Shown: positions 9,774 to 20,349 of the stretch, piece after piece
Position numbering within the stretch: position 1 is the stretch's first letter
How the letters are laid out: every line of letters begins with the position of its first letter
From: Alicyclobacillaceae bacterium
Lineage (GTDB): Bacteria; Bacillota; Bacilli; Alicyclobacillales; Alicyclobacillaceae
NCBI GenBank assembly: GCA_019683615.1
Contig: JADGIC010000002.1
Span: 1 to 51,684 of the forward strand
DNA length: 51,684 bases
Direction of reading: 5' to 3'
The notes under the pieces: model-generated
What the model saw: the letters and a program-made list of their open reading frames with translations, nothing else
What the model was told of the DNA's origin: nothing
Database searches by the model: none
Position numbers and translations under genes: made by a program

Positions 9774-10151
9774 GTGGACGTGATACGTTTGTACGGCATG
9801 AGGTTTTACGGACGCCACGGGGTGTTCTCCGAGGAGCGTGCGCTGGGGCAACCGTTCATCGTACATGTGGAGATGCGTTTGGACCTGTCGCTGGCCGGCC
9901 GCACCGACCAGCTCGAGCATACGGTGGACTACGGACAGGTGTACCAGCGTGTGCGCCGCCTCGTCGAAGGAGAGCCGGTGCGGTTGGTGGAATGTCTGGC
10001 GGAGCGCATCGCAGCGGAACTGTTGGCCGCGTTTCCGTTGCTCGAAAGCGTTGGCGTCACCGTGGCCAAGCCGTTCGCTCCGATTGATGGCGTTCTGGAC
10101 ACGGTGGAAGTGGCGATTGAACGCACTCAGGACCGGCAGAGCCAACGGTAA
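9774..10151 (+). CDS. folB: Dihydroneopterin aldolase
   Basis: 125 residues, the normal length. It converts 7,8-dihydroneopterin to 6-hydroxymethyl-dihydropterin in folate synthesis. Signatures are FYGRHGVFSEERALGQPF (Glu of the pterin site), HTVDYGQVY, ECLAERIA, and VAKPFAPIDGVLDTVEVAIER with the catalytic Lys. GTG 9774 has AGGAGGGAG about 5 nt upstream. folB usually sits with folP and folK; neither is in this window. The last 25 bp overlap the 3' end of the convergent ytpB gene. Confidence 0.88.
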   Translation: MDVIRLYGMRFYGRHGVFSEERALGQPFIVHVEMRLDLSLAGRTDQLEHTVDYGQVYQRVRRLVEGEPVRLVECLAERIAAELLAAFPLLESVGVTVAKPFAPIDGVLDTVEVAIERTQDRQSQR

Positions 10152-11200
10152 AGGCGGCAAGCCCAGAAGAACGTCCAAGCGGCGGCCCCGGCTTCGCTGA
10201 TCATGGAGTGCATCGGCCGGACGTCTGCTTGGCGTCTGGCTTTTGCGTCCGACAGGTACATAGCGACCAAGCCCAGCACGACGTAACGGTGCAGGCGGGA
10301 GTGGGCCAGACGGTCCGCCTCAGCGAGGCTGCGCCGAAGGAACTCCCGAATGCGCCGGTGGGCATCCGTCAAGGACGGGTAACACCGGACAAAATTGAAG
10401 TCGCCTTCTGCGGCGTCCTCCTCAAGGTCAATCAGGTAGTCGAGCAGGATATGCAATCCGCAGATCCACGGAAAATACCCTCCCGTCACCTGGACGACCT
10501 GGGTGGCGGCCAGCTCCGGATCGACGGCTTCCAGGAACAGCGCGAATACGCCGAGGGTGGAGCCGCAGGCGGCTGCGAACTCCCACCATTCGAGGTCAGG
10601 GAACAGCGGTTGGTACCTGGCCCACCAGGTTTGCAACCGGGCGGTGCGCAGCTCGGGATGAACGTGTTTGTGTTCTTGCAGCTCGCAGTAGCGGTCGACC
10701 AACCACACGACGTGGGGCTCCACAGCTGTGTACCCGGGCAGCGTGCGGAGGGTTGTTTGACACTTTCCGACCAAGTCGGACAGATAGCCGCCATCGTCGC
10801 ACATTCCCCTGTACAGGTAATAGGGTCGCAAGGGTGCGAATGGCCGGACGGCATCGCGCATGGCGTGATGGAGTTGGCGGAAGTCGTCGGGGTCGAACGT
10901 TTGGCAGCGGTCACACAGGTTGTCCAGGTAGTCGCTGATGGTTTGCAAAGCGACAATCAGCGGGACCACGCGCCCGGCCCAGTCGGGCCGGAATGCGCCG
11001 TACACGCTGCCGCCGTCCGCATGAAACCGTTTCTTGGCCAAACTGGCGAGCGCTTGTGCGCGCAGGACGGGATCCGGGATCTGCCGGGCCCGATTCTCCC
11101 AAAACCGCAGTTCCCGGCGGGCGCATGGGACAACCTTGACGGCCAGCCGGCCCAGGAAGTGGACGGCGCTTCGTGGCAGGGGGGTCGTGGCGGGCGACAT
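10127..11200 (-). CDS. ytpB: Tetraprenyl-beta-curcumene synthase family protein (YtpB, DUF2600)
   Basis: About 357 residues from ATG 11200. In B. subtilis YtpB cyclises heptaprenyl diphosphate to tetraprenyl-beta-curcumene, precursor of the spore sesquarterpenes (sporulenes). Family features are RRELRFWENRA, SDYLDNLCDRC (Asp-rich), the DGGYLSDLVGKCQ block, and LDYLIDLEEDAAEGDFNFV (second acidic motif). The frame stays open to 11389. A GGAGGGG (11238-11244) stands 7 nt before an in-frame CTG at 11230, which may be the real start; the ATG at 11200 has no good ribosome binding site. It overlaps folB by 25 bp tail to tail. Confidence 0.85.
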   Translation of the reverse strand: MSPATTPLPRSAVHFLGRLAVKVVPCARRELRFWENRARQIPDPVLRAQALASLAKKRFHADGGSVYGAFRPDWAGRVVPLIVALQTISDYLDNLCDRCQTFDPDDFRQLHHAMRDAVRPFAPLRPYYLYRGMCDDGGYLSDLVGKCQTTLRTLPGYTAVEPHVVWLVDRYCELQEHKHVHPELRTARLQTWWARYQPLFPDLEWWEFAAACGSTLGVFALFLEAVDPELAATQVVQVTGGYFPWICGLHILLDYLIDLEEDAAEGDFNFVRCYPSLTDAHRRIREFLRRSLAEADRLAHSRLHRYVVLGLVAMYLSDAKARRQADVRPMHSMISEAGAAAWTFFWACRLYRWLCRS

Positions 11201-11378
11201 CGCCACCCCGCTGGTGCGAGACAGCTGCAGAGCGTATCCCCTCCGGTTATGCGGAATGAACACGGCCAGCGGCGGTGGCGGTGTTCCCGTCCCCGTGTCC
11301 CAGGGTTGCCGCGCTTCCGGTCCGCCTTGGCTCGCCTTTAGTATCAGCCGGTTTCGCCGAGTCATACCGGGATCGGCC

Positions 11379-11765
11379 TTATTTGCCAAGCAGTCCCTTC
11401 ATCACGCCTGCCACTTCCAATACCTTCTTGGCGTTGTCAGCCGTCAAGTACTTCATGATGCCCGAGCCGCCGTACGCCTGCAACGGCAGCCCGGGCGGCC
11501 CGAACGGTATCCACGGCGTCGGCGCTGCCGCGGAACTTCCCGTACCCGTCTGTCCCTTCGCCTTCGGGGCCGGTTGCGGCGCAGCTGTTGCTCCCCCCGC
11601 GTGGTTGGACGCCGCGACAGGCGGTGCCGGCAGGATGGGCGGGGGCGGGAGAATTCCCCTGCGTTTGGCGCCGCGGTGGATAAGGCTGGCCAACTGCCGC
11701 ACTTTGTCATCTTGGGCGACCTGGAGGGCCAGGGAACCCAATTTGACCAGGGTATCGAGCTGCAT
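11379..11765 (-). CDS. Hypothetical protein with Pro/Ala-rich linker
   Basis: 128 residues from ATG 11765, with GGGGTGAG 6 nt upstream. A helical N-terminus (LVKLGSLALQVAQDDKVRQLASLI) is followed by a Pro/Ala/Thr-rich linker of about 50 residues and a helical C-terminus (LTADNAKKVLEVAGVMKGLLGK). No family is recognised. It lies just upstream of ytpB on the same strand and may be cotranscribed with it, although no functional link is visible. Confidence 0.6.
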   Translation of the reverse strand: MQLDTLVKLGSLALQVAQDDKVRQLASLIHRGAKRRGILPPPPILPAPPVAASNHAGGATAAPQPAPKAKGQTGTGSSAAAPTPWIPFGPPGLPLQAYGGSGIMKYLTADNAKKVLEVAGVMKGLLGK

Positions 11766-11996
11766 CGCATCTCACCCCTGTGGAGTTGACGGAATCGCGT
11801 CTCATCTAGAGTCAGGGTATGTCGTCCGAGCTCGGCTGCAGTGGCTGACTGCCTCAGGACACTCGCGGAATTCCCTTCAGCGCGAGGGAAGATTTCCATG
11901 GCCAGCGGTTGCAAGGCTGTGATAACGTAGGAAAGGTGGAAATGGACAACGAGGGAACGTGCTGCCGCTGCGTTCACCCCGGATGGAGCGAGGAAG

Positions 11997-13655
11997 ATGG
12001 CGGTTGTCAAACAGTCAGTATCCGGAGATGTGTGGTCGACGTCCGACCGTGGGCCGCATGGGAACGAAGTGTGGCGTCCGGATGGTCTGTTGCATCTGGA
12101 CGACGCTGCGCTGGAGAAGCGGGCGTCGTGGATCATGGAGCGATTGGAAGAGTTGGAGACGACGTTGCATCAGGAAGGAGATGCCAGTGCGGCTGCCCGG
12201 GTGCGGGAGTTGCGCAACCGGACAGCCGCCGTGGCCGCCGGGACGTCGCCGGCCGTGGTGACCGTGGCGTTTTGCGGCCTGTTTTCCGCGGGCAAGTCGA
12301 GCCTGGTCAACCGGTTATGCGGCAGCGGGGCGCTGGCCACCGGTGCGGTGCCGACGACGGAACAGGCACAGGCTGTCGCGCTGCCGGGGGCAGGGGGACA
12401 GGTGGTGCTGGTCGACACGCCCGGGATTGACTCCACAGTTGACGCTCACCGGTTGGAGACGGAGCGCGTGTTGGAGAGTGCAGATTGCGTGGTCGTCGTC
12501 ATGGATTACCAACACGTCGAGTCAGAACCGAACGTGACGTTGAGCCGCCGGCTGGCGGAGGAAGGCAGACGCCTGTGGCTCGTCGTCAACCAGATGGACA
12601 AACACCTGGAATGGGAGATTCCGTTTGCGCAGTACCGGGCGCGGATCGAGCGGGCGTTTGCGGACGCCGGCGTTCGTTGGGAACGGATCTTCTATACGGC
12701 TGCTGAAGGGGATGGGTGGGCCGAGCCGGACAACGAAGATCTCCGGGAGGTGGGCGCCGCCGGTGTTGAGCGGTTGGCAGAGGCGCTCCAGGAGTTGGGA
12801 GACGTCGCCCCCCGCGCCGTGTTGGCCAGCGTTGTCGCGCAGGCCTGCAACGCATTGGACAGGCATGTGGAGCGGTTGTGGGAATCTCATTGCCAGCGCG
12901 CGGCCGAAGGATTGCGGGCCTTAGGCGAAGTGGTCCCGGGTGACGCCGGGGAGGCACGGACCCGCTTGAACCGCGTTCGTAGCGAATTGGCGCAGCTCGA
13001 CGCCGCGCGGGAGGCGCGGTTGAAAGCTCTGTCTGAGGCCCAGCGGTCGATTCGCGAACAGTGGGTTCGCAGCGTGGAACTCGCCCAGATTGCCCCGTAT
13101 GAGACGACGGAACGAGGGCGGTCGTACGTGGAAAGCCTGCGCCCGGAGTTTCGCGTCGGGTGGTTGCGCTCGAAGCGCAAGACGGCCCAGGAACAGGTGT
13201 CGCGCTTGGAGCGGTTTGCTGCAGACCTGGCTGAGCGGACGGAGAAATTTTTGGTGTGGCCATTGCAAAACAGCTTGCGTCAATTTGTCCGGGAGACGGA
13301 GTGGGCCAACGACCGGTGGTTGGAGGAAGTGGACCACGTGGCGGTGAAGGTCACGCCAGCCTTTTGCCAGTCATTGGTGAAACAGGGGGCTTTGGTGTCG
13401 ACCCAATATCCGTACCAATACGTGAAAGATGTCGTCCACGCTGTCAAGCGGCAGGTCTTTGTCCGCCTGACAGAGCGGGTTGACGCTTGGTTTGCCGAGG
13501 CGTTGCAGTTGGCGTCGGCCGAGGATCCGGCGGCCGTCGACGCCCGCCGCCGGCTGGAGGCGTTGCAAACCCACCTCGAGGTCTTCATCAAGGCGGAGGC
13601 GGAGCGCGTGCAGAGGGTGTCAGAATGGATGGAGCGGGTGATGCAGGGTGCATGA
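11997..13655 (+). CDS. Dynamin-like GTPase, first half of a split DynA-like pair
   Basis: 552 residues. Bacterial dynamins bind membranes and aid fusion, repair or phage resistance. G1 is GLFSAGKSS (94-102), the G2 Thr lies in PTTEQ (120), G3 is DTPG (140-143) and G4 is NQMDK (198-202). The rest is helical, as in the stalk region. B. subtilis DynA (YpbR) is one chain of about 1190 residues with two dynamin units; this protein matches the first unit in length, and the next gene matches the second. ATG 11997 has GGAG 8 nt upstream. The stop overlaps the next start by 8 nt, implying coupled translation. Confidence 0.85.
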   Translation: MAVVKQSVSGDVWSTSDRGPHGNEVWRPDGLLHLDDAALEKRASWIMERLEELETTLHQEGDASAAARVRELRNRTAAVAAGTSPAVVTVAFCGLFSAGKSSLVNRLCGSGALATGAVPTTEQAQAVALPGAGGQVVLVDTPGIDSTVDAHRLETERVLESADCVVVVMDYQHVESEPNVTLSRRLAEEGRRLWLVVNQMDKHLEWEIPFAQYRARIERAFADAGVRWERIFYTAAEGDGWAEPDNEDLREVGAAGVERLAEALQELGDVAPRAVLASVVAQACNALDRHVERLWESHCQRAAEGLRALGEVVPGDAGEARTRLNRVRSELAQLDAAREARLKALSEAQRSIREQWVRSVELAQIAPYETTERGRSYVESLRPEFRVGWLRSKRKTAQEQVSRLERFAADLAERTEKFLVWPLQNSLRQFVRETEWANDRWLEEVDHVAVKVTPAFCQSLVKQGALVSTQYPYQYVKDVVHAVKRQVFVRLTERVDAWFAEALQLASAEDPAAVDARRRLEALQTHLEVFIKAEAERVQRVSEWMERVMQGA

Positions 13656-15702
13656 CGCGGACAACGTGAACAACATGCCGCCCCGCGCTTACGCAGCAAC
13701 TCCGGCGGCACTACTAACGGAGTTGTTGGCGGTGTTGCCTAGCGGGAGCCAGTTTGACGAATGGCGCCGGGCCGCCAACCAGCTGGCGGAGCGGCTGCGC
13801 AACCGCCAGCAGCTGGCGGCAGTGTTCGGCGCGTTCTCGGCTGGCAAGTCATCGCTGATCAACGCCTTGGTCGGCGAACCAGTGCTGGTCGTGTCGCCGA
13901 ATCCGACGACGGCCGCGGTAACGCACGTGGCGTCGGCCGGTCCCGACACCCCGGCCGACACGGTGTGGGTGACAGCCAAGACCGCATCGGCCATGGAGTC
14001 AGACGTGTTCCGCGCTTGCGGGCGCTTGGGCTTGGCGCCTGGCAGCTTGGCGGAGGCCGCGTCGCTTGGCCGCGCCTTGCGCCCCCTGCAGGGCGGCCCG
14101 CCGATACAGCAGGCTGCTGCGTTCTTGCGGGCGTTTGCCAACGGGTACGAGCAGATGGGGCCGCGACTGGGCAGCCGCTGGCCGGTACCGCTTGCGCAGG
14201 CGCGGGCGTACTGTGCCGACGAAAACGTCGCCTGTTTTGTCGAGCGGGTGGACTGGCCGCATACTGCGCCATTCTTGAATTCCGGACTCGTTTTGGTGGA
14301 TACGCCAGGGGTCGATTCCATCCACCAGCGGCACACCCAGCTCGCGTTTGACTACGTGCGCCAAGCGGATGCGGTTCTCTTTGTCCTCTACTACACACAC
14401 GCGTTTTCCCGGGCGGACAAGGACTTTCTGTTGCAATTGGCGGGGATTCAGGACGTCATCGGCCTGAACAAGCTGTTTGTCGTGATCAACGCTGTCGATT
14501 TGGCAAAGTCGGCGGAAGAGCGATCGGCCGTCCGAGAGCGGGTTGTCGCGGAGCTGCGGGCGTTGGGTTTGCGGGATCCGCGCGTCTACGAAGTCTCCAG
14601 CCAACTGGGTCTCGCCGCCCGGATGCTGGAGCGCAATCCGGCGGACGGCCGATTCGTGCAGCTGGTGCGCCAGCGGCTGAAGCTGCCTGCCCACGAGCCG
14701 CTGCCGACGGCTGCCGATTTATGGGAGCACTCTGGCTTGGATCATTTGCTCGCAGACCTCCGGTCGTACATGCGCGAGCAGGCGGATGCCGTCGCGATGG
14801 CCGCTGTCGAACGCGTCATCGCCGGCGCCCGTTCGAGTGTCGAAGCCGCTTGGCACCGGTGGCAGGCGGAGGCCGTGGCGACCCAGGCAGAGCAGGCTCG
14901 CGTGGCCGAACGCCGGCGTGCGTGGCAAGCGGAACTCGCTGCCGAGCGGGCCAAGGTGGAGGCGGGATCGTCCGTATTGGAGGCGGCTTTGCAAGCGGAG
15001 TGGGAGGAGCTGGTCTTTCACATAGGGGAGCGGATTCGCTTCCGGCTGCCGGCCTTGTTCCGCGAGGCCTTCCATCCCGGTCGGTTTCACGCGGGCACGG
15101 CTGCCCGACAAGCGCTTGCTGCGGCGGCGCAAGAACTGGCGGCGGCGTTGTCGCGCCAGGTGGAGGTGGAGACGCGGACGTTGGCGCTGCGTCTGCAAAG
15201 CCAAGTTGACCAGGTGATTCAGCGCCGCTGTGAATCCTTGGCAGCCGAAGCCGTTCTGCTCGGCGTCGACGTGCCAACGGCGTCAGACCCCGAAGCGGCG
15301 CCGGAGGCTGCAGCGTCAGAGGCGGCTGGCCGCCTTTTCGCCGTCCCGTCGGTGGAGTTGGATTGGACGCCCTTTCAGGCGACGTTCCGGCACTTCTCCA
15401 ATCCCAAGCAGTTCTTTGAGGGCGGCGGCCAAGGCGAGATGCTGCGGGATCTGGAAGACGTGGCTTTGCCGATGGTCCGCGACGCGGTGCAGCGGCTGGC
15501 GGATCAGCTCCGCGCCGGCGCGGTGCAACGGTTCCGCGACCAGTTGACCGCCCAGCTCGAGAGGACCGTCCGCGCAGCCGAAGCCGCCGGTGAATCCCTG
15601 ACGTCGCGCACGCCCGGCGCTTCCGTCGACAGCCGTCAGTTGGAAGCCGCGCGGGATTGGTTCCGCCATCGAGAACCTGCCGGTGTCTCGGTCGCTCGCT
15701 GA
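13648..15702 (+). CDS. Dynamin-like GTPase, second half of a split DynA-like pair
   Basis: 684 residues from GTG 13648 (an ATG at 13675 is the alternative). G1 is GAFSAGKSS (61-69), the G2 Thr lies in NPTTAAVT, G3 is DTPG (218-221) and G4 is the weaker NAVD (281-284), as in the second unit of DynA-type proteins. The C-terminal half is Ala/Glu/Arg-rich and helical, and it has a more hydrophobic DWTPFQATFRHFSNPKQFF stretch that may form part of the membrane-facing region. It is read in a different frame from the upstream GTPase. The two would together give about 1230 residues, close to fused DynA. Confidence 0.85.
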   Translation: MHDADNVNNMPPRAYAATPAALLTELLAVLPSGSQFDEWRRAANQLAERLRNRQQLAAVFGAFSAGKSSLINALVGEPVLVVSPNPTTAAVTHVASAGPDTPADTVWVTAKTASAMESDVFRACGRLGLAPGSLAEAASLGRALRPLQGGPPIQQAAAFLRAFANGYEQMGPRLGSRWPVPLAQARAYCADENVACFVERVDWPHTAPFLNSGLVLVDTPGVDSIHQRHTQLAFDYVRQADAVLFVLYYTHAFSRADKDFLLQLAGIQDVIGLNKLFVVINAVDLAKSAEERSAVRERVVAELRALGLRDPRVYEVSSQLGLAARMLERNPADGRFVQLVRQRLKLPAHEPLPTAADLWEHSGLDHLLADLRSYMREQADAVAMAAVERVIAGARSSVEAAWHRWQAEAVATQAEQARVAERRRAWQAELAAERAKVEAGSSVLEAALQAEWEELVFHIGERIRFRLPALFREAFHPGRFHAGTAARQALAAAAQELAAALSRQVEVETRTLALRLQSQVDQVIQRRCESLAAEAVLLGVDVPTASDPEAAPEAAASEAAGRLFAVPSVELDWTPFQATFRHFSNPKQFFEGGGQGEMLRDLEDVALPMVRDAVQRLADQLRAGAVQRFRDQLTAQLERTVRAAEAAGESLTSRTPGASVDSRQLEAARDWFRHREPAGVSVAR

Positions 15703-15764
15703 CGGATGCCGGCGGCCCTGGGATTGAGCCGCTGTTTCAGGTATGATGACAGCAGGAGGGATGG

Positions 15765-16976
15765 ATGATGGCAGGGCGATGGAACAGATGGGATGATGAC
15801 TGGGAGTTCCCCCGGGGCTCAAGCGGCCTGCGCCGGGCGGCAGTGGCCGTGTCGCTGCTGTTGGCGTACGCCCTTGGGGTGTGGACCGGCGGGACGGTGT
15901 TCCACCGCACGCACTCTGCCGCTATTCCCGCTCCCCCGCCACCCGACAGCGCGGACCAAATGCCGGCAAACAATTCCAGTTCCAGCCCGCTTCCGCCAGA
16001 TTTAAACGGCAACGTGATCACCCGCATCTACCGATCCGCTCGTCCCAGCGTGTTCACCATCACTGCTGTAACCACGAAGGCGCGCGACGGGGGGCCAGGG
16101 GCGGACATCGGGACCGGGTTTTTGATTGACCATGACGGCGACATCGCCACGAATAACCACGTGGTGTCCGGCTTTCACACGGTGTCGGTGACGGTCAACG
16201 ACACGACCTACAAGGGCACCGTGATCGGAACGGACCCGCTGGACGATTTGGCGATTGTCCGCATTCCGCCGCCCCCTGGCATTCAACCGCTGCCTCTCGG
16301 AACATCCAAGACGCTGCAGCCCGGTGACCTGGTGGTCGCCATTGGCAATCCCTTCGAACTGACTGCGAGCGTGACAGCGGGCATCATCAGCGGCTTGAAC
16401 CGGTCGATGCCAACCGACAGCGGCCGGGTTCTGACCGGTCTGTTGCAGACGGACGCCGCGCTTAACCCTGGTAACTCGGGCGGGCCATTGTTAAACGCCA
16501 GGGGCGAAGTGGTCGGAATCAATACAGCCATCGAAAGCCCTGTCGAGGGTTCGGTCGGCATTGGGTTTGCGATTCCCATTGATCGGCTGAAACAGGAACT
16601 GCCACTGTTGCGCGTCGGCAAGGCGGTGCAACACCCCTGGCTGGGCATCGTTGCGGACGACATCACCCCCGAGTTAGAGCAGGCGTTGCATTTGCCAGTA
16701 TCCCAAGGCGTGTTGGTGCGCCAAGTCGTAAAGGGAGGGCCGGCGGCGAAGGCGGGATTAATACCGGACACCAGTCCGCTGAGCGCCTCCCTGCCGAAGG
16801 GCGATGGGGATGTGATCACGGCTGTCAACGGCCGACCGGTGGGGTCGGTGGCTGATTTGACATCCGCTATCTCGCAATACCCAGTAGGCACCGTCGTCCA
16901 CCTGACAGTGCTGCGCCACGGAAAGACGATTGAGGTGGACGTCAAGCTCGGCAACTGGAACCAACGGCCGCAGTAA
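15765..16976 (+). CDS. HtrA/DegP-type membrane-anchored serine protease with PDZ domain
   Basis: 403 residues. A cytosolic N-terminus is followed by one membrane helix (about 24-44, AAVAVSLLLAYALGVWTGG) and a Ser/Pro-rich linker. The trypsin-like domain carries the catalytic triad His132 (NNHVVSG), Asp161 (DDLAIV) and Ser238 (GNSGGP), and one PDZ domain follows at about 305-400. It should degrade or refold damaged proteins outside the membrane. ATG 15765 follows AGGAGGG; ATG 15768 is equally possible. It lies 62 bp after the dynamin pair on the same strand and may be transcribed with it. Confidence 0.93.
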   Translation: MMAGRWNRWDDDWEFPRGSSGLRRAAVAVSLLLAYALGVWTGGTVFHRTHSAAIPAPPPPDSADQMPANNSSSSPLPPDLNGNVITRIYRSARPSVFTITAVTTKARDGGPGADIGTGFLIDHDGDIATNNHVVSGFHTVSVTVNDTTYKGTVIGTDPLDDLAIVRIPPPPGIQPLPLGTSKTLQPGDLVVAIGNPFELTASVTAGIISGLNRSMPTDSGRVLTGLLQTDAALNPGNSGGPLLNARGEVVGINTAIESPVEGSVGIGFAIPIDRLKQELPLLRVGKAVQHPWLGIVADDITPELEQALHLPVSQGVLVRQVVKGGPAAKAGLIPDTSPLSASLPKGDGDVITAVNGRPVGSVADLTSAISQYPVGTVVHLTVLRHGKTIEVDVKLGNWNQRPQ

Positions 16977-17486: not shown

Positions 17487-17544
17487 AATGTCTTGTGCGG
17501 TGTGTGCGGGATCGGGAAAGTCCAGGAGGGGGGTGCGCGGCGGG

Positions 17545-18078
17545 GTGAACGCGGCTGAGTTTGAGCGGTTGGTTCGCGAATACTCGCCCATGGTTCGCAG
17601 CCTCATCTACCACATCACGCGCAGCCCGGACGACGTGGATGATATTGCGCAAGACGTGTTTCTGCGCGCGTTTCAGGCGATGCCCACGTTCCGGGGAGGG
17701 AGCTTTCGCGCATTTCTCGGACGCATTGCACGAAATCGCTGTTACGACCTCCTGCGGCAACGGCGGGCGAGCAGTGCCAGCCCGTTTCTGGCGTTGGCCG
17801 CCGACGATTGGCCGTCGGCCGAACGCAGTCCGGAGGAAACCGTTGTGGCGCGCGAGGCGGTGGCCGAGGTGATCCGGGTGGTTGGGCAATTAAGCCAAGT
17901 GGACCGGGAAATTTTGTTGCTTCGCCACGTTCATGAGTTTACATACGACGAGATTGCCGCCGTATTGGGCATGCGCAGTGGCGCGGTGCGGACGCGTATC
18001 TCCAGGGCCCGCCAGAAGGTTGTAGCGGCGTTGGAAAGGGGGCAGCGCGATGCGTCAGGATCATCTCAGCTGGGATGA
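17545..18078 (+). CDS. ECF-type RNA polymerase sigma factor
   Basis: 177 residues, typical ECF size with only regions 2 and 4. Region 2 runs from EFERLVREYSPMVRSLIYHI to DDVDDIAQDVFLRAFQAM and RNRCYDLLR. Region 4 has the helix-turn-helix EFTYDEIAAVLGMRSGAVRTRISRAR. GTG 17545 is chosen because it opens directly into region 2; the nearer GTG 17533 sits almost on the AGGAGGG. The gene overlaps the following anti-sigma gene by 29 bp, the standard arrangement of a sigma factor and its cognate inhibitor, and has its own ECF-like promoter. Confidence 0.92.
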   Translation: MNAAEFERLVREYSPMVRSLIYHITRSPDDVDDIAQDVFLRAFQAMPTFRGGSFRAFLGRIARNRCYDLLRQRRASSASPFLALAADDWPSAERSPEETVVAREAVAEVIRVVGQLSQVDREILLLRHVHEFTYDEIAAVLGMRSGAVRTRISRARQKVVAALERGQRDASGSSQLG

Positions 18079-19240
18079 GCTGTGGGCGGCGTGGGACCAT
18101 CAACGGGGCGGCGATGGTGACCGCGCGCGGCTGCATCCGCTGTTCCGCCACCTCGAGCAGTGCCCGGAGTGCGCAAGCCGGTATCAATTGGTGCAATCCG
18201 CGCACCACGCCATCGTGGAGTCGCTGGGCGGGCTCAGCGGGCTTCCGCAGGAAGGGGGCAACGGCCCGGGTTCCGCGCAGCCGGTGGCTGCCCGGCAGGC
18301 GCCGCGGCGCCGCCGAACCGTCAGCCCCACGACTTGGAGGTGGGGTGTCGGATGCGCGGCGGCGGCAGCCTTGACGGCGGCGGTGTGGCAGGTCGGCGGG
18401 CTGACTCGACAGCAGAGCTTGTCGGCCAGCGTGCGGCCGCTGACAGCCCCATCAGGTTCCGCAGGCACAGGGGGGAGTATCGGTTCGCGGGCGGCGGGAA
18501 ACGGACCGTTGCAGCGAAGCGATGCGCGTGAGCGACAACCAGCAGGTGCGCCTGCAGCGGTCCAGGAACGCGCGGGCTTGTTTTCGACGGCCGCTGAACC
18601 GCCGCCGAAAGCGAACAGCCTGCCCGCTTCATCGCCTCCGTCGGCAGCGGGCAATGGTGTGGCCGGGATAGCATCAGACTCTGATGTGCAACAACAGCGT
18701 GACGGGGTGAATGAGAAGAGCGCAGCGGTCACCGGGTTGGGTGTGGCAAACCGGGCCGGTCAGACTCAATCCGCCGAGCCCGGGGGTGTCGAACTGACGG
18801 TGTTCGGCTTCCGTCCGGCTGCACAACTCCGCGCCCGGGCGTCGGTCAGCAGGGCAGCCACAGCAATTGCGCCGTTGGAAGGTGTGCGGGTGACTGTGGT
18901 TTCAGCCGGCACCGTCGTGTGGTCGGGCGAAACGGCGGCAGACGGTTCGCTGCACTCGGTGCTTTCGTCCACAGTCCCTCGCCCGGGCACCACACGTACG
19001 GGCAACCCCTCGTCCCGGCTGGTGGACAGCACGCTGGCCGAAACGGCGACGGTCGTGTTTTGGAAGACGGGTTTCCAACCGGTGGTGTGGTTGGACGTAC
19101 CGTGGATGCGGAAAACGGAGGGTCAAGGTTTGCACCAGTCGGTGTTGATGATGTCCATGCCGGACGGTCAGGCGAAAACCGCGACATGGTGGGCTCTGCC
19201 GCCATCCGTGCCGCTGGACGGCCGCCCGGGGCAGCCATGA
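18050..19240 (+). CDS. Zinc-finger (ZAS) anti-sigma factor with extracytoplasmic domain
   Basis: 396 residues. The cytosolic N-terminus has the zinc anti-sigma motif H34-x3-C38-x2-C41 (HLEQCPEC). A membrane helix lies at about 95-115, followed by a long Ser/Ala/Gly-rich spacer. The C-terminal domain (LEGVRVTVVSAGTVVWSGE ... TVVFWKTGFQPVVWLDV) looks like a carboxypeptidase-regulatory or transthyretin-like beta-sandwich and is probably the external sensor. ATG 18050 has AAAGGGGG upstream and lies inside the sigma gene. It should hold the sigma factor inactive until an envelope signal arrives. The last bases lie 34 bp from the convergent sigK. Confidence 0.82.
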   Translation: MRQDHLSWDELWAAWDHQRGGDGDRARLHPLFRHLEQCPECASRYQLVQSAHHAIVESLGGLSGLPQEGGNGPGSAQPVAARQAPRRRRTVSPTTWRWGVGCAAAAALTAAVWQVGGLTRQQSLSASVRPLTAPSGSAGTGGSIGSRAAGNGPLQRSDARERQPAGAPAAVQERAGLFSTAAEPPPKANSLPASSPPSAAGNGVAGIASDSDVQQQRDGVNEKSAAVTGLGVANRAGQTQSAEPGGVELTVFGFRPAAQLRARASVSRAATAIAPLEGVRVTVVSAGTVVWSGETAADGSLHSVLSSTVPRPGTTRTGNPSSRLVDSTLAETATVVFWKTGFQPVVWLDVPWMRKTEGQGLHQSVLMMSMPDGQAKTATWWALPPSVPLDGRPGQP

Positions 19241-19274: not shown

Positions 19275-20015
19275 TCAGGATCCGCCATCGGTGTGAGGAC
19301 GGTAGACGAACGGCTTCCGGCGGCGCTGACCTGCGTAGGACTGATGAAACATCTTGAGCAAAGCGCGTTTTTCCAGCCGTGACACGTAGGAGCGGGAGAT
19401 GTTCAGCATGTCGGCGACTTCGTTTTGTGTCCATTCACGACCGTCGACGAGGCCAAACCGCAACTCTATGACGCGCCGTTCCCGCTCGTCCAAGACGTTC
19501 AGCAACTGCATCATGTGGCGGATCTCCATACGTTTGTTAACGGCTTCTTCCGTTTCGTCCGCCTCCGAACCGAGAACGTCCCCAATGGTGATCTCGTTAC
19601 CCTCTTTGTCAGTACCGATGGGGCTGTACAGCGAAACGTCTTTCCTGGACTTTTTCAACGAGCGGATTTGCATGAGGATTTCGTTCTGAATGCACCTGGC
19701 AGCATAGGTTGCAAACTTCGTGCCTTTGGTTGGTTGATACGTTTCGACCGCCTTGATCAACCCCACTGTGCCGATGGAGATCAGGTCATCGTGGTCGATC
19801 CCGCACGAATCAAACTTCTTGGCCACGTGCGCAACGAGCCGCAGGTTGTGTTCGATGAGCGCGTGGTACGCAGCGCGATCGCCCGCTTTCCAACGCTCGA
19901 AGTAACGCTTCTCCTGCTCCTTGGTAAGGGGCTGGGGAAAGGATTGGTTCACGTATCCTGCCACGAGCGCAATGTCCCGAATGAGCGACACCATGGCGAC
20001 GGCGAGAGAAATCAA
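19275..20015 (-). CDS. sigK: RNA polymerase sporulation sigma factor SigK (pro-sigma K)
   Basis: 246 residues. Sigma K directs late mother-cell transcription during sporulation. The hydrophobic pro-sequence (ISLAVAMVSLIRDIALVAGY), removed by the SpoIVFB protease, is present, followed by region 2 (DHDDLISIGTVGLIKAVETY, KFATYAARCIQNEILM) and region 4 (WTQNEVADMLNISRSYVSRLEKRAL). The gene is uninterrupted, unlike the skin-split gene of B. subtilis. The start is chosen at TTG 20015, 8 nt after a perfect GGAGGTGA; the GTG at 20027 lies inside that ribosome binding site. It shows that the organism forms endospores. Confidence 0.93.
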   Translation of the reverse strand: MISLAVAMVSLIRDIALVAGYVNQSFPQPLTKEQEKRYFERWKAGDRAAYHALIEHNLRLVAHVAKKFDSCGIDHDDLISIGTVGLIKAVETYQPTKGTKFATYAARCIQNEILMQIRSLKKSRKDVSLYSPIGTDKEGNEITIGDVLGSEADETEEAVNKRMEIRHMMQLLNVLDERERRVIELRFGLVDGREWTQNEVADMLNISRSYVSRLEKRALLKMFHQSYAGQRRRKPFVYRPHTDGGS

Positions 20016-20349
20016 CGGATTGGTCACCTCCGGGCAACCCGCAAGTCACATGCCGGATATACCAGTTTATGCGAGCATCGCCCGGGATGGTGTCACCACA
20101 TCGCCCGGGATGGTGTCACACTCGGAGGACGAACGCCGGCTTGGGTCCAAGCCTGCCGGACAGCATTGCATCGCTGCGGGGGCACGCTGTCCTCCAAGCA
20201 ACCTCTGCCGTCCCGGGCCGCTCCGGCGTCCCCCGACCGTGCGCTCGCCCGCACCTCCTTGCAGAGGCCGGCGCAGGCCTGTGCAATTTCCGCCGGCCAC
20301 CCATATGCATACACCCACACACATAGAGGTAGGGAGAGGTGAGGTTGTC
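20016..20349. other. Divergent intergenic region between sigK and the glycosidase-like gene
   Basis: 334 bp holding the sigK ribosome binding site (20024-20031, minus strand), a tandem 21-bp direct repeat (20076-20119) and an Alu-like absence of any supported gene. No clear sigma-A promoter is seen for either side. Confidence 0.4.
20076..20119 (+). repeat. Two tandem 21-bp direct repeats upstream of sigK
   Basis: The 20-mer ATCGCCCGGGATGGTGTCAC, preceded by C in both copies, occurs at 20076-20096 and 20099-20119 with 2 bp between them. The copies are identical. The repeat period is 23 bp, roughly two helical turns, which fits a dimeric regulator binding twice or a recent small duplication. 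There are only two copies, so it is not a CRISPR array. Confidence 0.8.

Follow-up and report, generated by a model that had tools for sequence, protein, structure and literature searches.

An unfused, DynA-type pair of dynamin genes is shared across the Alicyclobacillaceae

We found that a bacterium of the Alicyclobacillaceae encodes two complete, co-directional and adjacent genes for distinct dynamin-like GTPases, DLP1 and DLP2, and that this split is real and common to the whole Alicyclobacillus family. Fusion of the two heads of DynA is not universal in these bacteria. With a probability of roughly 80%, we consider DLP1 and DLP2 to be unfused DynA orthologues, made as two proteins from one message by coupled re-initiation, which would form a hetero-oligomer that tethers, fuses or repairs membrane. 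The window, meaning the entire 51,684-nucleotide stretch of DNA that was analysed, spans the full length of contig G000:C85 in a draft genome of 2.4 Mb (224 contigs, 85.6% complete), and its relevant features are collected in Table 1.

Table 1 Features of the dynamin locus and its surroundings, in window coordinates
Feature	Position	Strand	Description
DUF2600 protein gene	10127..11389	-	oriented divergently to the DLP pair; recurs beside it within the family
DLP1	11997..13655	+	552 aa; DynA head 1 orthologue; long helical stalk with conserved tip motif GALVSTQYPYQYVKD
DLP1 GTPase motifs			G1 GLFSAGKSS residues 94-102; PTT 119; G3 DTPG 140; G4 NQMD 198
Possible DLP2 Shine-Dalgarno, GGTGAT	13637..13642	+	lies inside DLP1, 5 nt upstream of GTG 13648
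DLP1 stop / DLP2 start overlap	13648..13655	+	8 nt, GTGCATGA; probable translational coupling site
DLP2	13648..15702	+	684 aa, GTG start; DynA head 2 orthologue; conserved stalk tip motif QFFEGGGQ
DLP2 GTPase motifs			G1 GAFSAGKSS residues 61-69; PTT 86; G3 DTPG 218; G4 NAVD 281
HtrA-like trypsin/PDZ serine protease gene	15765..16976	+	downstream neighbour of the pair; recurrent in the family
ECF-type sigma factor gene, then a slightly overlapping gene without Pfam match	17521-19240		
Sigma-70 family gene, sporulation sigma factor-like	19275-20027	-	single uninterrupted ORF

Two DynA heads in separate genes

The initial annotation had described a DynA-type double dynamin encoded by two genes in different frames, each specifying a complete GTPase unit. 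Both open reading frames were confirmed at these positions and in different frames, and each combines the G1, PTT, DTPG and G4 motifs with a significant match to the Pfam family Dynamin_N (2.8e-17 for DLP1 and 4.3e-27 for DLP2). On the NCBIfam DynA profile NF052648, which has 1187 positions, DLP1 covers positions 131-498 and DLP2 positions 582-879, with the order of the heads kept. The two halves score 192 and 238 bits, below the equivalog cut-off of 1600 bits; we regard this cut-off as very narrow because the fused proteins of Bacillaceae likewise fall under it, scoring just 794-848 bits. Profile order, tree orthology and conservation of the split all agree that this is a DynA-type double dynamin in the form of two genes.

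The summed length of 1236 aa matches DynA, as had been pointed out from the sequence, but this agreement is partly coincidental: fused proteins carry 43-100 residues (median 54) between the heads, and this linker is absent from split pairs. When linker sequences were compared for signs of fusion or fission, they were alignable just at the last residues before head 2, where they correspond to the N-terminus of split DLP2 (for example DYKAKLG in Ammoniphilus and MEDFKSQLG in Tumebacillus).

AlphaFold models, built from 39-row alignments, have mean pLDDT values of 89.3 (DLP1) and 87.4 (DLP2) and predict folds of the bacterial-dynamin type, with a GTPase domain and a helical-bundle stalk. Using Foldseek, the top PDB matches are LeoA, BDLP and IniA for the DLP1 model (E down to 1.6e-9) and SynDLP, BDLP and IniA for the DLP2 model (E down to 3.4e-17), and chains of the C. 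jejuni DLP pair (5owv/5oxf) appear in the match lists of both. The Foldseek TM-scores are modest for both models (0.2-0.5), perhaps reflecting differing conformations of the stalk and hinge.

Conservation of the split in the Alicyclobacillaceae

We searched 61 related genomes with each protein, fetched the loci and re-derived their open reading frames. DLP1 and DLP2 are separate genes in 35/35 Alicyclobacillaceae genomes whose two ORFs share a contig, a count that includes the genome of the window and one genome (G027) in which the contig ends within DLP2. Two further genomes (L232 and L233) likewise have separate genes, and named Alicyclobacillus species are also split. No fused DynA was found within the family among the examined genomes. 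DLP1 stands alone before a contig end in one genome (G006) and neither gene was found in another (G010); the two genes co-occur, in that neither is present without the other in any genome whose locus is uncut.

The junction between DLP1 and DLP2

The 8-nt overlap noted in the initial annotation holds with GTG 13648 as the start of DLP2, but with GTG 13666 or ATG 13675 as the start the two genes would be separated by a short gap. GTG 13648 is the likeliest of these starts because the anti-Shine-Dalgarno match GGTGAT lies 5 nt upstream and the -8 spacing recurs in relatives. In 57 distinct split junctions drawn from all lineages, the spacing is -4 nt in 22 and -8 nt, the value of the window, in 9 (31/57 together), in a tally whose script picked the start nearest -4 and is thereby biased toward short overlaps. 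In 39 of the 57, DLP2 is preceded by an SD-like match that is 5 nt or longer. Both spacing and frame offset (0, 1 or 2) vary between genomes, with gaps that are small or overlapping, often -4/-8 nt. Taken across lineages, this junction pattern suggests translational coupling of DLP1 and DLP2. A sigma-70 promoter scan of positions 11700-15900 found no site, a negative that carries no weight here.

Same-frame junctions, in which just a stop and a few codons separate DLP1 from DLP2, occur in several Brevibacillus-family, Tumebacillus and Alicyclobacillus genomes (L132, L134, L137, L141, L154, L201, L204 and L091). At such junctions, losing the stop would fuse DLP1 with DLP2.

Alternative explanations for the two genes

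The initial annotation raised the possibility of a sequencing indel near 13642-13655. An error of this kind, from sequencing or from assembly, would break a single fused gene, and both the fragmented state of the draft and the different frames of the two ORFs are compatible with it. We rejected this artefact as extremely improbable, since no close relative is fused and every same-family genome with both ORFs, complete chromosomes included, has separate genes, at offsets of 0, 1 or 2 and with a start region of their own. Conservation of the split in relatives therefore excludes a single-strain indel by itself; moreover, the linker of the fused proteins is missing here, which no single indel accounts for. 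Programmed ribosomal frameshifting or readthrough could instead yield a DynA-like fusion from the two ORFs. The ORFs do overlap, and DLP2 of some Brevibacillus, Tumebacillus and Alicyclobacillus genomes begins in frame just past the stop. However, the offset varies among relatives, the pairs of two genomes (G015 and G024) lack any overlap of open frames, the junctions show no slippery sequence in common, and DLP2 mostly has an SD-like match of its own. With neither overlap, frame offset nor slippery motif conserved across split junctions, this candidate was also rejected, and we regard it as very unlikely.

The full set of GTPase motifs in each protein would also suit two independent homodimeric dynamins that are neighbours by chance. 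This is improbable given that the pair co-occurs and stays adjacent across families, that in many lineages its orthologues are joined in one covalent chain, and that B. subtilis DynA requires both of its GTPases for hydrolysis (PMC6104087, PMC8844932).

Proposed function and relation to known dynamin pairs

Most likely, DLP1 and DLP2 constitute a translationally coupled, hetero-oligomeric machine for membrane tethering or repair. One message would give rise to two proteins, with DLP2 produced by coupled re-initiation at the overlapping stop and start, and DLP1 and DLP2 would come together at the cytoplasmic membrane in a hetero-oligomer. GTP hydrolysis stimulated by this assembly would lead to membrane tethering, fusion or repair, in the manner of B. 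subtilis DynA and the Campylobacter DLP1/DLP2 tetramer. In fused lineages a flexible linker holds the heads to each other, whereas the split pair would have to rely for this on its shared operon and on an interface between the proteins. The C. jejuni DLP1/2 complex is a 2:2 tetramer that tethers membranes (PMC6104087), and DynA carries out nucleotide-independent membrane fusion (PMC8844932, PMC6162298). On the Campylobacter precedent (PMC6104087), the earlier proposal that a split pair could form both homo- and hetero-oligomers is plausible.

The pair resembles B. subtilis DynA (YpbR) in that both heads are orthologous and in the same order, sharing GTPase and stalk motifs and the two paralogous clades. 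It differs in consisting of two polypeptides rather than one, in lacking the linker and in having another neighbourhood. Like Cj-DLP1 and Cj-DLP2 (PMC6104087), DLP1 and DLP2 are encoded by distinct genes that lie side by side, and their predicted folds match the 5owv/5oxf chains; by sequence, however, they are much closer to DynA, and a counterpart of the Campylobacter-specific assembly domain found in Cj-DLP1 is not expected in the Alicyclobacillaceae pair. Streptomyces DynA/DynB, LeoA/B/C and IniA/IniC are likewise paired bacterial DLPs in operons (PMC6104087), and LeoA and IniA rank high among the structures that match our models, but these are separate families with weak sequence similarity. 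A PADLOC search for defence systems returned distant LeoA/LeoBC matches and no other.

Most bacterial DLPs occur as side-by-side pairs in operons (PMC6104087), and in the Bacillota literature covered DynA is a single two-headed gene product. Paired bacterial dynamins are already known, and the unfused DynA pair departs from a generalisation in the literature without amounting to a novel type of system. We found no relevant earlier report on Alicyclobacillus or Brevibacillus dynamins in a literature that excludes the primary DynA paper (Burmann et al. 2011). The pair adds orthologues in which each head has its own gene, an arrangement fixed in entire families within one class. Because the machine exists naturally both as a single chain and as two, and these versions can be exchanged in B. 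subtilis, the reason for the fusion and any importance of the linker can be tested, as can the way in which hetero-oligomeric fusion dynamins such as mitofusins assemble, which makes the pair a useful natural experiment.

Split and fused DynA beyond the family

Among named loci, the heads are split in Alicyclobacillus, Brevibacillus and Tumebacillus and fused in Bacillaceae, Anoxybacillaceae, Paenibacillus, Cohnella, Aneurinibacillus and Ammoniphilus, with two Paenibacillus loci cut by contig ends as exceptions to the fused call. A class-wide search, in which the state was read from the open-frame lengths of the matches listed and low-scoring genomes remained unclassified, gave a uniform state for several families. 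Among the matches listed, 36/36 Brevibacillaceae (f160, including Brevibacillus massiliensis and B. fulvus) and 7/7 members of a Tumebacillaceae-like family that groups with Tumebacillus (f171) are split, and 11/11 members of the Aneurinibacillus family (f150) are fused. Sampled Bacillaceae, Paenibacillaceae and Aneurinibacillaceae are fused.

A sister family in the same order (f2) is mixed, being split in G039, G040 and G049 and fused in G041 and G051. Its two fused loci, L108 (G041) and L110 (G051), group together (100/99) inside their split relatives L106, L107 and L109, and likely represent a separate fusion.

Outside the class, 9 sampled genomes matched, and their intact loci are fused. 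DynA is broken at two loci there, L225 (G070) and L222 (G189), one inside the head 2 stalk (frames of 926 + 323 aa) and one inside head 1; both breaks lie off the head boundary and are read as pseudogenes or assembly errors. One genome (G257) has two diverged fused DynA copies, L214 and L215, and a locus from another genome, L218 (G652), groups with L214.

History of fusion and fission

Heads 1 and 2 form reciprocally monophyletic clades, each with split and fused members, and we consider the heads to be ancient paralogues because the two clades are fully supported. The initial annotation held that the pair bears on the origin of two-headed dynamins. This is borne out, but the history goes beyond one event: on a concatenated tree of 65 taxa and 1188 columns, the split or fused state changes at least five times. 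An AU test with all split lineages in one clade rejected a single fission behind them (p 8e-46), and a clade of the three non-Alicyclobacillales split lineages was rejected more weakly (AU p 0.015).

When each head is rooted by the other, the mostly split Alicyclobacillales are deepest in both, with support of 98 and 97 under LG+G4 and again, at 87-95, under a mixture model; the main caveat on this deep placement is the long branches and compositional bias of that order. By parsimony, a split root takes 5 changes and a fused root 6-7. A history of fusions with no fission needs 9 fusions, and one of fissions only needs 6-7 fissions. These trees slightly favour a split ancestor, followed by an early fusion and then by later fissions and one more fusion. 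We give about even odds to the broader proposal that the Alicyclobacillales pair is a surviving pre-fusion DynA and that the state switched at least five times in Bacilli, these switches including one fusion that arose separately within the sister family and splits that arose independently in Brevibacillaceae, Tumebacillaceae and a third lineage. On this proposal the heads can do without a covalent link, which may be gained or lost in evolution.

Secondary fission, with an ancestral fused DynA from which splitting produced the Alicyclobacillaceae pair, is a serious possibility to which we would give rather less than an even chance. The split pairs of Brevibacillaceae, Tumebacillaceae and f170 nest inside fused clades, making fission look possible; fused ancestry is just one or two steps costlier, and when fusion is weighted twice fission the roots tie or the fused root wins. 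What speaks for the split ancestor instead is the position of Alicyclobacillales at the base of both heads under either model, which leads to the lower count for the split root.

Genomic neighbourhood

The arrangement of DUF2600 gene, DLP pair and HtrA-like protease gene differs from the neighbourhood of dynA in Bacillus. The split is therefore not tied to one locus, and orthology accordingly rests on trees rather than on synteny. Further downstream, the Pfam-less gene that follows the ECF-type sigma factor gene possibly encodes its anti-sigma factor, and the sporulation sigma factor-like gene beyond it lies on the opposite strand to the DLP pair.
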